Shown one piece after another: positions 35,906 to 42,565 of a stretch of DNA of 64,000 nucleotides; positions within the stretch are counted from its first letter, which is position 1; every line of letters begins with the position of its first letter. The stretch is taken from positions 1-64,000 of the forward strand of contig NZ_KV789178.1 of NCBI RefSeq assembly GCF_001807485.1, written 5' to 3'. The stretch comes from Corynebacterium sp. HMSC08A12 (GTDB taxonomy: Bacteria; Actinomycetota; Actinomycetes; Mycobacteriales; Mycobacteriaceae). Both the position numbers and the translations under genes were made by a program. The notes under the pieces were generated by a model. That model was not told where the DNA came from and did not search any database. It saw only the letters and a program-made list of their open reading frames with translations.

Positions 35906-36910
35906 ATGACTTCGAACTACACCCCGTTCCGCCGCCCCCGCCGACTCCGCACGACCCCGCAGATGCGCAACTTCACTGCGGAGACGGACCTGAACCCCAA
36001 CCGGCTGGTGCTTCCGATGTTCATCGCCGATGGGCTGGACGCCCCACGGGACATCACCAGCCTGCCCGGCGTGCAGCAGCACACCGAGGATTCGCTGCTG
36101 CGCGCGGTGGAAGAAGCCGCGAACGCGGGCGTGGGATCCATCGACCTGTTCGGAGTGCCGCTGGATGAGGACAAGGATGCGACCGGCAGCCAGTCAGTAG
36201 CCGAGGACGGCATTCTCAACCGCGGCCTGCGCGCCGTCCGCGAGCGCTTCGGCGACGACATCCTGGTGATGGCCGATACGTGCCTGGACGAGTTCACCGA
36301 CCACGGCCACTGTGGCGTGCTCTCCACCGACCGCTACGGCCACCAGATCGTGGACAATGACGCAACCCTGCCGCAGTACGCGAAGATGGCAGTTGCACAG
36401 GCCGAGGCCGGTGCGCACATCGTGAGCCCCTCCGGAATGATGGACGGGCAGATCCGCCACATCCGCGAGGCGCTGGACGCGGCCGGCCACCAGGACGTAT
36501 CGATCATGGCCTACTCCGCGAAGTACGCCTCCGCGTTCTTCGGCCCCTTCCGCGAGGCCGTGGGCTCCTCCCTGCAGGGCGACCGCCGCACCTACCAGCA
36601 GGACCCCCGCAACCTGAGGGAATCCATCCTGGAAACCCAGCTGGACATCGACGAGGGGGCGGACATGGTGATGGTCAAGCCCGCGATGCCCTACCTGGAC
36701 GTGCTGCGCGAAGTCGCGAACATGTCCCCGGTGCCAGTGGCTGCCTACCAGGTCTCCGGCGAGTACGCGATGATCTCCGCAGCCGCCCAGAACGGCTGGA
36801 TCGACGAGGAAGCGGCGATCATGGAATCCATCTATGGCATCCGCCGCGCCGGGGCGGACATCATCCTCACCTACTGGGCAACCCGCGTGGCGCAGATGCT
36901 GCAGGGCTAA
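35906..36910 (+). CDS. hemB: Porphobilinogen synthase (delta-aminolevulinate dehydratase)
   Basis: 334 residues. It condenses two 5-aminolevulinates to porphobilinogen. The two Schiff-base lysines lie in [13 protein letters not shown] and [10 protein letters not shown]. The metal loop reads [14 protein letters not shown]: the first and third positions are Cys but the middle one is Asp, unlike the three-Cys zinc enzymes, so metal use may differ. It starts 35 bases after hemD. Confidence 0.95.
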
Positions 36911-36951: not shown

Positions 36952-37845
36952 ATGAACAGCACCGACAGCAGCGCACATATGAGCACACAGCAACACGACC
37001 CCCGCCTCCAGGGTGGTTCCCAGGGCGGCCCCCAGCCGGGCTCGCACGGCCAGCAGCCGGGGCCACAGCGGGGCCAGCAGAACCTGCAGGGGCAGCCGGG
37101 GCCGCACGGCCCGCAGGGGCCGTATGGTTCACACGGCCCGCAGCAACCCCCGAAGCCGCCGAAGCCTCCGAAGGTGGGGCGGAAGGACGGCCTCGCGCCG
37201 AACCTCAAGGAGGCGCCGGAAGACGTCCGCTACGGCGTATGGGCCTGGCTGGCGGTAGCCGTGCTGCAGCTGCTGGCAAGTGTGGTGCAGTTCGTGGCTA
37301 ACATTGTCGACCCGCGTGCACTGACCCAGAGCAGCCAGGGCATCCTCGATAGCCAAAGCGGCATGTTCGCCAGCGTTCTTGCAGATCAGGATGCCTCCGA
37401 GATCGCCACGCAGGTAAACATCAGCTCACTGATGTGGGGCATTATCGCCTCGGCAGCCTGTGCCTACTTGGCCTGGCGCGCAGGCCGCGGAGCTCCGTAC
37501 TCCCGCCTGTTCTTGAACGTCGCCTCCGTGTTCATGATCTTCAACGCGGTGCTCATCACGTTCGCTAGCGGGCCGGACTTCATGTCCGTAGGCTTCGTGC
37601 TGCTCATCGGCATCCTGACCATTCTGTCAGGCGTATGCGCTGCGCTGGGCCTGTGGTTTATGTCTCGCCCGGAGAACCACGACTGGCTGGGTATGCCCAG
37701 CGTCAAGGAGATGGAGAAGTACTCCAAGGAGATGGAGGAGTACAAGGCGGAAACGCGGCGTCAAAAAGAAGAGCGAAAAGAACAAAAGAACAGCGACGAT
37801 AAAGACCGCACCGATCACACCGACCACACCTGGGGAGGGCGCTGA
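36952..37845 (+). CDS. Membrane protein with Gly/Pro/Gln-rich N-terminus
   Basis: 297 residues. The first 80 are rich in GPQG, QPG and PPKPP units, followed by KVGRKDGLAPNL, four hydrophobic helices (about 97-117, 159-177, 189-204 and 210-238) and a highly charged Lys/Glu/Arg tail. Placed 41 bases after hemB and 2 bases before the next membrane gene, it is part of the heme operon. Family not recognised; position suggests the Rv0513-like slot of mycobacteria. Confidence 0.7.
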   Translation: MNSTDSSAHMSTQQHDPRLQGGSQGGPQPGSHGQQPGPQRGQQNLQGQPGPHGPQGPYGSHGPQQPPKPPKPPKVGRKDGLAPNLKEAPEDVRYGVWAWLAVAVLQLLASVVQFVANIVDPRALTQSSQGILDSQSGMFASVLADQDASEIATQVNISSLMWGIIASAACAYLAWRAGRGAPYSRLFLNVASVFMIFNAVLITFASGPDFMSVGFVLLIGILTILSGVCAALGLWFMSRPENHDWLGMPSVKEMEKYSKEMEEYKAETRRQKEERKEQKNSDDKDRTDHTDHTWGGR

Positions 37846-37847
37846 CC

Positions 37848-38393
37848 ATGCCCGCGATGTTTCCTTCGATGGTTCCGGGTGGCCAGGATCCTAACCGCGA
37901 CGTTAAGTACTGGCAGCCCGGGGACCCCACGCCGCGCCTTGTGATCGTCAGCTTCGCCATGCTGGTGGTTGTGGGGCTACTGATGATCTTCTTCGGCGTG
38001 CTGGCTCTGACGGCCTCCTGGGACCGTGAGCCGATGAACGCAGAGGAAGCCGAGCACATGAACTTTGTGCGCAACAACGTGAGGATCCTCGGCGGCATCA
38101 ACGTTGTGGTCGGCGCGGTGCTGGTCTACTTCTCCCGCGGCGTGCGCGACGGCTACCGCGGCAAACGCCGCCTGGTGCTGTGGTTCGGCGCACTGGGCAT
38201 CCTGTTCATGCTGGCGGGCTGGGTTTTCGGCTTCACCGGCCCCGGCCAGGCCATCATGGCCTTGCTGTTGGCAGTCGCGCTGCTGCTGGCCTACCGCCCT
38301 GCGGTTAACCCGTTTTTTGACGCCGGGCATCGGCTCGACGAGCCGCCCATCGAAGGCGACGGCACCCTACCGGGCGACAGCCTGCGGAGTTAA
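37848..38393 (+). CDS. Four-helix membrane protein in the heme cluster
   Basis: 181 residues. Four hydrophobic helices (about 32-56, 82-98, 111-127 and 131-146) are separated by short loops; RNNVRILGGINVVVGAVLVYF is typical of the middle. Two bases after the preceding gene and five before the ATPase-like gene, so certainly co-transcribed. Family not recognised. Together with its neighbours it may form a membrane complex (inference). Confidence 0.7.
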   Translation: MPAMFPSMVPGGQDPNRDVKYWQPGDPTPRLVIVSFAMLVVVGLLMIFFGVLALTASWDREPMNAEEAEHMNFVRNNVRILGGINVVVGAVLVYFSRGVRDGYRGKRRLVLWFGALGILFMLAGWVFGFTGPGQAIMALLLAVALLLAYRPAVNPFFDAGHRLDEPPIEGDGTLPGDSLRS

Positions 38394-38398
38394 CAGGA

Positions 38399-41170
38399 AT
38401 GGCTGAAAACGACTCAAGGATCGTCCCGGCCAGCAGCCGGGCGGCGCGAAAAGCTGCCGTGGGTGTCGACGACGTCGACGAGGCGATCCTGCAGGCCCGC
38501 GAGGCGGCGGCGAAGGCTGGCTTCGACATGGACCGCACGCCGTCCACCGAAGAAGAGGCCGACCGGGCGGCACGCGAACACTGGGGGCTTGCCAGTTTCG
38601 CCTACCGCCTGGAAGGGCTGGAATCCGCGGTGGCAGCCACCACCGTGGAGGAGGAACTCAACGACATTCCGGGCGTGCAGGCCGCGGTGGTGTACTCCAC
38701 CGGCATGGCGTGGATCTCCGCTGAAGATCACGTGCTGCCCGCCCAGATCCAGGAGGTGCTGGAAAAGCACAACCTGGATAGCTGGCTGACGGATTCCTCC
38801 CTGCGCCGCCGCGCCTCGCGGCTGGAGATCGAGGAAACGCGCCGGCGCATGCGGCGCCATGCCAGCGACCACAGAAGGGCATGGGCTGCGGCGGAGAGCC
38901 GCAAACGGCGCGACCGGAACAAGGTGGAGATGGATAGGTTCCGCCGCCAGAACCCCTTCGACTCCACCGAGGGTCTGCACACCGCCCGGCAGCTGATTAC
39001 GCGCATGCGGTTGATCGTCGCCGTGGTGCTGGGGCTGCCGGTGGTGGTTCTGCAGCTGGTTTCCGCCTGGCAGTTCGACTATTGGCAGTGGGTCTGCTTG
39101 GCGCTGGCCACCCCAGTGGCGACGTGGTGCGCGTGGCCCTTCCACCGGGCCTTTTTCGGCGGTTTAAGGCGGGGGCAATCCGCCCTGGATGGCGCCAGCT
39201 CCGTGGCGATCCTTCTGGCCTACTTGTACTCGGCGTGCACCCTGATTTTCACTTCCGCCGGCAACGTGGGTTGGCACAGCCATCAGGTGCTGTTCGCCGG
39301 AGTGTGGTCTGCGCAGGACATTAAGGGAGCAGTTTTCTTCGACGTCGCCTGTGGCGGCACTATCCTGCTGCTTTTCGGCAGGCTACTTTCCCGGCGCACG
39401 GCGCTGCGCTCGAAGTCGATCCTATCCGTGCTGACTGTGCCCGCCGCCAAGGAAGTCACGGTGGTGCGCAAGACTCGTAAGTCGAAGACGGAAAAGAAGG
39501 ACATTCCGATCGCGGAGATCCGCACGGGCGATGACATCATCATTCATACCGGCATGATGGTGCCCAGCGACGGCGAGATCATCAGTGGTAAGTCCCTTGT
39601 GGACATGGGGCCCGTCGGCGGTATGCACCGTACTTTCGAGGTCTCAGTCGGCGACCGCATCTTTGCCGGTGCCCGCAATCACGGCGGCACGTTGAAGATG
39701 CGCGTGCACGCCACGGGTTCCTCTACGCGCCTGGCCGCCATGCACCGTTGGGTGCGCGGGTCCGCGTTGGACGAGACTCGTCTTACCCAGCTGACAAACC
39801 GTACCGCCAGCCTGCTTGTGCCGTGGGCTTTCGTGCTGGCTGCAGTGGACTTCATCGCCTGGCTGGCCATTACTAAGTCCGTCGATGCGGCGATGGCTAC
39901 CGCCCTCTCCCTGTTGGCAGTCGTCGCGCCGGTTGCCCTGGCTCTGTCTGCGCCGTTGGCGCTGCGTTTGGGGCTGTGGCGTGCTGCCACTGCGGGTGCT
40001 CTACTGCGCGATACGAGTACCATTCACAAGCTCGCTGAGGTGGACGCCATCGTCTTCAACCGCGTGGGCACCCTCACCGATGGGCCGATGCATGTCATCG
40101 GCGTGACGCCTGTCAAGGGGGAGAACCCGGACCTGATCCTCCGTGTGGCTGGCGCTCTGTCCCTGGAGTCGAATCACGCGGTCTCTCAGGCGCTGGTGCG
40201 CGCCGACCGCGAGGCACGCGACAGCGGTGCTGGCGGGGAAGGGATTCCCCACTGGCTGGATGTGGGCGAGGTGAAGATCACCAAGGACGGCACCTTCGAG
40301 GGAATGGCGGAGTTGCCGATTGAAGGGGAAATGCGCCACGTCAAGGCACGCCTGTGGCGCCCGCACGACCTGGGCGAGATCCGTGATCCGCGCCTGGCGA
40401 CGGCAGCTTTGAACGGCGGCTCGCCCGTGATCGTCAGCTGGAAGGGCAAGGACCGCGGCGTCATTAACCTGGCAGATAGTTTCAAGGACGATGCCCCGGC
40501 TGCGATCGACCAGCTGGAGGATATGCAGATGGAGACGTACATGCTCTCCCGAGACATCTATCCTGTGGCACGCCGGACGGCGAACGCACTCGGCATCTCC
40601 ACCGTGTTGGCCGGCATCGCACCGAATCGCAAGGCGGCCACTGTGCGCGGTGTCCACGCCATGGGCGTGCGCGTGGCGATGGTGGGCGATAGTGACGTGC
40701 TGGGTGCGCTGCGAGTTGCGGATGTGGGCATCCTCATGACTTCTTCCAACCGCATCGATCCCTCTGCCGCCGAGGTGGCGGACGTGGTGATGCAGCGCGA
40801 GGATGTTTCCGCGTTGCCGGAGCTGGTGAACCTGGTTCGACACATCCGCAACACCACCGACTGGAACGTGTGGTTGTCCTGGACCTATAACGCGGTCGGC
40901 GCGACTCTAGCAGTCGTCGGCGTGCTCAACCCTCTGCTGGCCACGGTGTTTATGCTGCTCAGTTCCACTTTGATCGAGAGCCGGAGCGCCCGCATTTTGC
41001 ACCGCAACTACGCGCGCGGCACGCTCCGCCAGACCCACTCGTGGCAGGGCTGGGTGGAGCGCCGGCGGGAGATCCGCGAGTTGCGCAAGCAGGAGAAGCA
41101 GCGCGCCGAGGCGATTTCCCTGGCCCGTGCGGAGGCTGCGGACGAGGAGTATGAGCAGTCCCAGCGTTAG
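38399..41170 (+). CDS. P-type ATPase homologue lacking catalytic motifs (pseudo-ATPase)
   Basis: 923 residues with the full P1B-type layout. A degenerate HMA-like domain (about 70-125) has no CxxC. Two pairs of N-terminal helices, an actuator domain, helices with the ion-site motif, a P domain and a C-terminal helix pair follow. The key residues are gone. The phosphorylation site DKTGT is replaced by NRVGT (Asn554), the TGE loop by GGM (407-409), the CPC ion motif by APV (510-512), the GDGxND hinge by GDSDVL (763-768), and the HP motif region reads NHAVSQ. The frame is unbroken and codon use matches its neighbours. It probably cannot couple ATP to ion transport, so a structural or sensing role with the heme genes is more likely. 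Confidence 0.85.
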   Translation: MAENDSRIVPASSRAARKAAVGVDDVDEAILQAREAAAKAGFDMDRTPSTEEEADRAAREHWGLASFAYRLEGLESAVAATTVEEELNDIPGVQAAVVYSTGMAWISAEDHVLPAQIQEVLEKHNLDSWLTDSSLRRRASRLEIEETRRRMRRHASDHRRAWAAAESRKRRDRNKVEMDRFRRQNPFDSTEGLHTARQLITRMRLIVAVVLGLPVVVLQLVSAWQFDYWQWVCLALATPVATWCAWPFHRAFFGGLRRGQSALDGASSVAILLAYLYSACTLIFTSAGNVGWHSHQVLFAGVWSAQDIKGAVFFDVACGGTILLLFGRLLSRRTALRSKSILSVLTVPAAKEVTVVRKTRKSKTEKKDIPIAEIRTGDDIIIHTGMMVPSDGEIISGKSLVDMGPVGGMHRTFEVSVGDRIFAGARNHGGTLKMRVHATGSSTRLAAMHRWVRGSALDETRLTQLTNRTASLLVPWAFVLAAVDFIAWLAITKSVDAAMATALSLLAVVAPVALALSAPLALRLGLWRAATAGALLRDTSTIHKLAEVDAIVFNRVGTLTDGPMHVIGVTPVKGENPDLILRVAGALSLESNHAVSQALVRADREARDSGAGGEGIPHWLDVGEVKITKDGTFEGMAELPIEGEMRHVKARLWRPHDLGEIRDPRLATAALNGGSPVIVSWKGKDRGVINLADSFKDDAPAAIDQLEDMQMETYMLSRDIYPVARRTANALGISTVLAGIAPNRKAATVRGVHAMGVRVAMVGDSDVLGALRVADVGILMTSSNRIDPSAAEVADVVMQREDVSALPELVNLVRHIRNTTDWNVWLSWTYNAVGATLAVVGVLNPLLATVFMLLSSTLIESRSARILHRNYARGTLRQTHSWQGWVERRREIRELRKQEKQRAEAISLARAEAADEEYEQSQR

Positions 41171-41233
41171 CCGCGCTAGGCTGGTGGGGATTGCAAGCTA
41201 ACCACTAGTGAAGTGGCAGGAAGGATCCTTTTC

Positions 41234-42565
41234 GTGTCTGTTAATGCCGACCCTCAGCACTCGAATAACTCCCAGAGCCAGGCCAGCGAGAAGGCCTTCG
41301 ACCGGGCTCGCACGCTGATCCCGGGCGGGGTGAACTCCCCGGTTCGCGCGTTCGGATCTGTGGGCGGCACCCCGCCGTTTATCACCTCCGCGCAGGGCTC
41401 CACGCTGCACGACGTTGACGGCAACTCCTATGTGGACCTGTTTTGCTCCTGGGGGCCGATGATCCACGGGCACGCCCACCCGCAGATCGTGGAGGCAGTT
41501 CGGGAGGCCGCCGGCCACGGTCTTTCCTTCGGTGCGCCGACCACGATGGAGGTCGACCTGGTGGAGGAAATCGTCCGCCGCACTTCCGTGGAGAAGGCCC
41601 GCCTGGTGAACTCCGGCACCGAGGCCACGATGTCCGCCATCCGCCTGGCCCGCGGCTACACGGGCCGCGACAAAATCCTGAAGTTCGAGGGCTGCTACCA
41701 CGGTCACGTCGATTCGTTGCTGGTGGCGGCCGGTTCCGGCGTAGCTACTTTCGGTCTGCCGGATTCCCCGGGCATCACCAAGGCCGCTGCGGGCGATACC
41801 GTCGTGGTGCCTTACCGCGACGTGCAGGCCGTGGAAGATGCGTTTGCCTCCCACACGGGTGAGATCGCCGCGATCATCGTGGAGGGTGCCGCTGGAAACA
41901 TGGGCACCGTTAACCCGCAGGGCTTCAACGCGGAGCTGCAGCGCATTGCCCACGAAAACGGCGCCCTGTTGATCGTCGATGAGGTCATGACGGGCTTCCG
42001 CGTCAGCGAGTCCGGCTGGTACGGCAAGGACGGCGTGGCCGGCGACCTGACGACGTTCGGCAAGGTCGTCTCCGGTGGCCTGCCCGCTGCCGCTTTCGGT
42101 GGCAAGGCGGAGATCATGGATCACCTCGCGCCGGTGGGGCCGGTCTATCAGGCCGGTACTCTGTCGGGCAATCCGGTTGCCGTCGCCTCGGGCTTGGCCT
42201 CTTTGAAGTTGGCTGACGCCGCCGCGTACCAGAAGCTCGACGCGAATGCTGACGCGCTGGCAGGCATCCTGTCCGACGCTTTGACGAAGGCCTCCGTGGC
42301 CCACCACATCCAGCGTGCGGGCAGCATGGTGAGCGTGCGCTTCGCCGAGGGGGAGGGCGCGAACTTCGCGGACATGAAGGCCGCGGATACTTTCCGCTAC
42401 CCGGCCTTCTTCCACGCTTTCTTGGACCACGGCGTGTTCGCCCCGCCGAGCGTCTTCGAGACCTGGTTCGTCTCCACGGCACTGACCGATGCCGACTTCG
42501 AGAAGATCGCGGCGGCCGCCACCCCGGCTGCAGAGGCTGCTGCGGCGGCCACCCCTGCTGCTTAG
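41234..42565 (+). CDS. hemL: Glutamate-1-semialdehyde 2,1-aminomutase
   Basis: 443 residues from GTG 41234, with AGGAAGG at 41218-41224; a longer frame from 41213 has no better signal. It converts glutamate-1-semialdehyde to 5-aminolevulinate using PLP. The PLP lysine is Lys277 in [17 protein letters not shown]. Also conserved are [37 protein letters not shown] and the substrate loop [13 protein letters not shown]. An Ala/Pro-rich tail is extra. It follows the ATPase-like gene directly; hemE and hemY, found between in related genomes, are absent here. Confidence 0.95.

Follow-up and report, generated by a model that had tools for sequence, protein, structure and literature searches.

A full-size relative of the P-type ATPases whose phosphorylation site is replaced is encoded in the heme operon of Corynebacterium sp. 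HMSC08A12. This pseudo-pump is real and genus-wide. It is probably best explained as a pseudo-P1B-type ATPase with the fold of a copper pump, kept by purifying selection in the heme operon as a membrane protein that does not pump. The window, i.e. the whole stretch of DNA that was analysed, comprises 64,000 nucleotides, and the following genes in it are relevant here:

35906..36910, + strand, hemB (delta-aminolevulinic acid dehydratase), upstream neighbour; Pfam ALAD, 457.8 bits
36952..37845, + strand, orf1, membrane protein; separated from orf2 by 2 bp, older at this place than the ATPase-like gene
37848..38393, + strand, orf2, membrane protein; four hydrophobic stretches by hydropathy, its end 5 bp upstream of the ATPase-like gene
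38399..41170, + strand, pseudo-P1B-type ATPase, 923 aa, intact frame; assigned by Pfam, NCBIfam and an AF2 model
41213..42565, + strand, hemL-like class III aminotransferase, downstream in this lineage; Pfam Aminotran_3 (hemL by presumed similarity)

Family assignment

The open reading frame starts with ATG at position 38399, ends with its stop codon at 41170 and contains no internal stop, so that the intact frame of 923 codons claimed by the first-pass annotation was confirmed. The Pfam families E1-E2_ATPase (PF00122; 111.8 bits, cut-off 28.1) and HAD hydrolase (36.0 bits, cut-off 26.4) were both found. The protein also passed the general P-type ATPase model of NCBIfam, TIGR01494 (124.3 versus 62.3), and scored below the cut-off of the heavy-metal P1B model TIGR01525 (302.4 versus 346.25 bits). 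A phmmer search of the PDB returned 3rfu (2.1e-49), and P1B-1 copper ATPases were the best PDB matches in both sequence and fold. By descent the protein belongs to the P-type ATPase superfamily, with homologous A, P, N and membrane domains. Its cysteines are restricted to positions 233, 244, 280 and 318. Four further P-type ATPases were found in the genome with PF00122, all four carrying DKTGT; the loss of pumping at this locus would therefore be affordable. A P-type ATPase label assigned automatically at this locus would be misleading as to function.

Replaced and retained motifs

Residues were counted over 180 distinct aligned orthologs, down to 39% identity to the window protein. For comparison with canonical pumps, 114 ortholog rows were set against 41 canonical relatives, leaving out the distant genomic ATPases L002 and L003. 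The sites concerned, all on the + strand, are:

38585..38791, HMA-like domain (residues 63-131); lacking CxxC and any Cys, modelled with a strand-helix pattern
39341..39352, DVAC (315-318); Asp at the canonical Glu position, C318 fixed in the clade
39617..39625, GGM (407-409) at the TGE site; loop drifting and often deleted among orthologs
39926..39934, APV (510-512) at the CPC site; P511 in 180/180
40058..40072, NRVGT (554-558) at the DKTGT site; N554, R555 and G557 in 180/180
40166..40177, nucleotide-site motif ESNH (590-593), largely kept
40547..40555, SRD (717-719) at the TGD site; Gly to Arg fixed, Asp kept
40631..40633, K745, the Lys of HAD motif III, kept in 180/180
40685..40702, GDSDVL (763-768) at the GDGxND site; only GD largely kept
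40886..40891, YN (830-831), transmembrane metal-site motif, kept; Y in 180/180, N in 176/180

A single aspartate that becomes phosphorylated is the defining feature of P-type pumps. In the window protein the phosphorylatable Asp-Lys is Asn-Arg, so the aspartate of a working enzyme is missing, and NRxG was present in all 180 distinct orthologs as well as in the four remaining genomes carrying the gene. Together with N554, R555 and G557, the residues R718, D719, K745, C318, L263, P511 and Y830 were invariant (180/180); position 718 is Gly in 41/41 canonical relatives. The dephosphorylation motif TGE is absent, GGM standing in its place in the window; position 409 is a gap in 90 of the 180 rows, and the mean top-residue frequency over residues 404-412 is 0.35. 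The CPC typical of P1B-1 pumps is likewise lacking (position 510: A 153, G 24, C 2, S 1; n=180), as is their CxxC, since the canonical C76 and C79 of the HMA-like region are both replaced. Within GDGxND, G763 (177/180) and D764 (163/180) persist and the N and D are lost.

Other residues were retained on the nucleotide side and in the membrane. The E-S-x-H motif was found as E590 in 162/180 (D in 16), S591 in 178/180 and H593 in 169/180; the Pro of the HP motif is present in 72/114 orthologs and absent from the window protein. In the membrane, YN is accompanied by M852 (175/180), S855 (95/114) and S856 (97/114), so that the YN and MxxS of P1B-1 ATPases are represented. The entry-site Met is gone, being replaced by L263. 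Position 318 is Ala in 38/41 canonical relatives, and position 315 is Asp in 163/180 and Glu in 17; the canonical Glu at this position is the copper entry residue of LpCopA. Forty positions reached at least 97% in orthologs and at most 10% in canonical relatives, some of them lying in stretches that the canonical rows lack; clear clade-specific positions (114 versus 41 rows) include N554, R555, R718, C318, R258, L263 and W451. The histidine H249 (PFHRA), considered as a new heme ligand, was dropped, as the same conserved His occurs in canonical copper ATPases.

NRVGT, GGM, APV, GDSDVL and the HMA-like domain without CxxC were thus all located at the residues given by the first-pass annotation. 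Its wording that every catalytic motif is replaced holds for Asp, TGE, CPC, ND and CxxC, but overstates the case, because K745, D719, GD and E-S-x-H, plus the membrane YN and Met, are largely kept.

Conservation within Corynebacterium

The gene was detected in 184 of 242 Corynebacterium genomes (match at E <= 1e-110). All 184 proteins, i.e. the 180 distinct rows and four more, were read and carry Asn-Arg, and DKTGT was found at this locus in none of the 184 gene-bearing genomes of the genus; the substitutions that the annotation had proposed to follow in other Corynebacterium are fixed. The 180 open frames measure 804-1096 codons from stop to stop, each spanning at least 95% of residues 200-860. 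Pairwise dN/dS of close pairs had a median of 0.076, far below 1, with a range of 0.027-0.259 (62 of 66 pairs, finite dS). Fixed replacements, low dN/dS and intact frames together argue against local decay, which the annotation, like a dN/dS near 1, had named as an outcome that would overturn its reading. With its fold kept, its catalytic residues lost and its sequence under purifying selection, the protein is a putative pseudoenzyme. The altered phosphorylation site is itself under selection while the TGE loop drifts, and a frozen former phosphorylation site beside a drifting loop fits a new structural or ligand role rather than decay. In one genome (G422, 77% complete) the gene is split over frames (locus L331), which could be an assembly error or a fresh loss.

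No ortholog was recognised with one query in 185 genomes of 30 other genera, where the best match scored 324.5 bits; in the same search 12 orthologs of the genus besides the window reached at least 640.5 bits, counting the first piece of G087.

Heme-operon setting and the two upstream membrane proteins

Pfam identified glutamyl-tRNA reductase, porphobilinogen deaminase, HemD and ALAD upstream, and the class III aminotransferase, ResB and cytochrome c assembly proteins downstream. A further neighbour, which had no Pfam match, is presumably ccdA. By gene order, we expect the C. glutamicum name of the pseudo-ATPase gene to be cg0515. The gaps between hemB, orf1, orf2 and the ATPase gene are 41, 2 and 5 bp; one promoter-like match was found in the stretch (0.9 expected) and six terminator-like matches (4.5 expected). 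Judged from this arrangement, the four genes are likely to be co-transcribed. At the 80 fetched ortholog loci, which had been chosen because each had a pseudo-ATPase match, hemB was always located upstream on the same strand (80/80), with 425-2376 bp between the open frames, and hemB was also present on 6/6 ortholog loci fetched later. The placement of the gene inside the heme operon, claimed from the window, therefore holds beyond it. In genome G259 the order is hemB, a 199-codon ORF, orf2, the pseudo-ATPase gene, hemE-like, hemY-like and hemL. The hemE-like and hemY-like genes of G259 are absent from the window gap 41170-41213; the one URO-D gene of the window's genome is located at G000:C9:226806-227873, placing hemE elsewhere in this lineage.

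The annotation had also proposed that the two small proteins encoded upstream act together with the pseudo-ATPase. This was not supported. Beside hemB, orf1 was found at 80/80 gene-bearing loci, at 37/37 loci lacking the pseudo-ATPase gene and at 16/19 loci in other genera; the corresponding numbers for orf2 were 57/80, 30/37 and 11/19 (in other genera, profile matches at E <= 1e-3 and at most 4.5 kb from hemB). Since both pre-date the pseudo-ATPase gene and usually outlive it, they are not obligate partners, and an obligate trio was ruled out. Neither orf1 nor orf2 matched a Pfam or NCBIfam family above cut-off. They represent (36952-38393) two unnamed membrane protein families adjoining hemB in several genera.

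Gain and loss across the genus

All 58 Corynebacterium genomes without a pseudo-ATPase match contained hemB. From 39 of these genomes, 40 hemB loci were fetched, the short contig L254 being set aside; 37 loci lacked the gene and two (G379 and G357) had a partial copy at the contig end. At 25 of the 37 gene-less loci hemL was visible within the stretch. A presence tree was calculated with FastTree from five neighbouring genes in 118 rows (81 with and 37 without the gene), 23 of which were under half filled; the midpoint root served for drawing only. Five changes were needed on this tree, and one of these accounts for a clade of 30 sampled rows, none of which has the gene. With the gene present at the midpoint root, we read the five changes as losses, the ancestor of the genus having carried it; several losses would make it dispensable in evolution. 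No substitute ATPase-like gene stood in place at the six gene-less loci that were read ORF by ORF. At three of these six loci (L236, L221 and L225), other ORFs are found on the opposite strand between the hemY-like gene and hemL. At L223, hemB and hemL have neither a hemE-like nor a hemY-like nor an ATPase-like gene between them.

A copper pump beside hemB in other genera

Of 76 genomes from other genera, 12 (8/14 of genus g9, 3/6 of g21, 1/3 of g29 and 0/53 of the rest) carry a CopA gene in the same orientation as hemB and 2.3-3.8 kb downstream of it; this is not an unbiased rate, since all 14 g9 genomes had been added because the first case, L340, belonged to g9. Before this enrichment, CopA was linked to hemB at one of 19 other-genus loci (L340). 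A thirteenth CopA (L032, g21) lies 17.8 kb from hemB. The link in three other genera pre-dates or parallels the Corynebacterium case.

The CopA of L340 (L340:6500-8647; stretch L340:6245-8648), the one linked CopA that was read, is of the same family as the pseudo-ATPase and has the same place downstream of hemB, orf1 and orf2. It differs in that its own catalytic motifs are intact (DKTGT, TGE, CPC, GDGVND and CASC), whereas those of the pseudo-ATPase are replaced. Phylogenetically the pseudo-ATPases formed a monophyletic clade (support 100/100). When two distant ATPases were left out, this clade joined the CopA proteins of L340 and L032 with weak support (74/82); when they were included, it fell outside all CopA, possibly an effect of long branches. 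HMM ranking placed L032 seventh and L340 twelfth of 87, and so did not single out the linked CopA as nearest. Given the CopA genes downstream of hemB in other genera, the origin we prefer is a possible descent of the pseudo-pump, in place, from a copper pump linked to hemB.

Predicted structure and comparison with known systems

The AF2 model of the pseudo-ATPase (pLDDT 82.1, pTM 0.70) contains the strand-helix pattern of the HMA-like domain. Its best structural match was CopA 7r0g (Z 30.6, 3.4 A over 626 residues), which we take to be an E1 structure. Superposition with 7xun, an ATP7B mutant lacking CPC and Asp, gave Z 26.4 and 3.7 A. P1B structures labelled E2P or E2.Pi deviated by 12-14 A, the E1 apo structure 8q73 by 9.0 A and some E2-labelled structures of other families by 7-9 A. 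The genome's own copper ATPase, used as a control, yielded a poorer model (pLDDT 72.6, pTM 0.53) that fitted E1 and E2 about equally. The model would agree with a protein that stays E1-like and does not cycle, but the E1 preference is soft and was given little weight.

With the P1B-1 copper ATPases (CopA, LpCopA, ATP7B) the protein shares the fold, the HMA-like domain, the helices, YN, Met and the HAD Lys; it differs from them in having no Asp, TGE, CPC, CxxC or ND, and in its fixed R555, R718 and C318. Human TMEM94 (ERMA) likewise has P-type ATPase architecture without TGES. For TMEM94, the sections consulted of one study report that ATPase activity and a pump cycle are absent and that AMPPCP is bound (PMC12134183); its status is contested, as it is defined as a Mg ATPase in the consulted part of another (PMC13322241). 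TMEM94 differs in being eukaryotic and of another subfamily, and the residue proposed to be phosphorylated in it, D417, is an Asp.

Proposed function and alternative explanations

Replacement of Asp by Asn in DKTGT abolishes the phosphoenzyme in known P-type ATPases. Without Asp, TGE or ND the Post-Albers cycle as known is impossible, and from its residues the pseudo-ATPase should be unable to form a phosphoenzyme or to run a pump cycle. The kept nucleotide-side residues suggest, by analogy with TMEM94, binding without turnover, which would involve E-S-x-H and the P-domain Lys. A non-cycling protein of this kind could act as a sensor or scaffold for a membrane ligand (metal or heme) or for the energy state, and such sensing might be coupled to heme synthesis or cytochrome assembly.

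In the copper-table rows consulted of PMC3140484, cg0518 (hemL), cg0519, cg0520, cg0522 and cg0524 of C. glutamicum are copper-induced; cg0512-cg0517 are absent from these rows, so that copper induction of the pseudo-ATPase gene is not reported there. Together, this copper response of cg0518-cg0524 and the occurrence of HemX in other hem operons point to regulating the production of heme or cytochromes as the most economical role. The best reading appears to be a membrane protein that does not pump but serves as a regulator or scaffold linked to heme and respiration. The earlier proposal of a repurposed, non-hydrolysing protein is thus retained in so far as the protein is conserved, tied to the heme operon and devoid of the known hydrolytic site, but not with regard to its two upstream partners. 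A more far-reaching version, which we hold only tentatively, is that a copper pump located next to hemB underwent a single exaptation at the base of Corynebacterium and became a non-cycling, E1-locked receptor that senses nucleotide and metal or heme and regulates the production of heme and cytochromes. Such a receptor would use an altered nucleotide pocket (N554, R555, R718, K745) and a new membrane site made up of D315, C318, YN and Met.

A specific form of the regulator reading is that the protein resembles HemX and adjusts how much glutamyl-tRNA reductase (HemA) is present according to heme. HemX of Bacillus and Staphylococcus is an integral membrane protein in a heme operon and reduces the amount of GtrR/HemA in both B. 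subtilis and S. aureus, according to the consulted part of PMC10991733, and the pseudo-ATPase occupies a similar place, as a membrane protein within the hemA-C-D-B-L gene run. This likeness is one of position; heme control in Corynebacterium is, however, reported to operate via HrrSA, ChrSA and DtxR, and the gene-less genomes keep hemB (58/58), with hemL seen at 25/37 loci. We therefore regard a HemX-like regulator as unlikely.

A similarly low probability is given to a passive carrier or chaperone that, independently of ATP, would deliver copper or another metal, held at Y830, N831, M852, D315 and C318, to a heme-copper oxidase or a cytochrome factor. The kept YN and Met, the gained and fixed C318, the kinship with CopA, the hemB-linked copA of other genera and the copper induction of nearby downstream genes (PMC3140484, rows consulted) are consistent with such a carrier, but both Cys of CPC are lost (one Cys is left in 2/180), as are the entry-site Met (L263 in 180/180) and CxxC.

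An unconventional activity, i.e. ATP hydrolysis without an aspartyl phosphate, could still be accommodated by the K, D, GD and E-S-x-H that are largely kept; such an active enzyme is nevertheless very improbable, as neither the nucleophile nor TGE nor the ND of GDGxND is present, the Gly of TGD has become a fixed Arg, and the change of Asp to Asn has the known effect on the phosphoenzyme. A decaying pseudogene or sequencing artefact, to which the absence of the gene from several lineages and the split copy at L331 might point, is hardly conceivable, local decay being refuted by 180/180 open frames, identical fixed replacements and the low median dN/dS.

Significance

No paper on this pseudo-pump was found among the literature matches listed, and a search for cg0515 gave methylation-probe and other human or mouse papers among the matches listed. 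The searched-for locus names are absent from the sections consulted of PMC6160403 and PMC9491836, and no such pseudo-pump is described in those of PMC10654040. The preferred reading, a non-pumping membrane protein tied to the heme operon, concerns a basic pathway in a genus that includes the industrial C. glutamicum and opportunistic pathogens, and is thus directly testable. With its full-size pump body, no phosphorylated Asp and replacing residues that vary no more than a catalytic site would, the protein offers a natural test of the capacities of the fold apart from pumping. If the receptor proposed above were real, it would represent a bacterial class of signalling pseudo-pumps.
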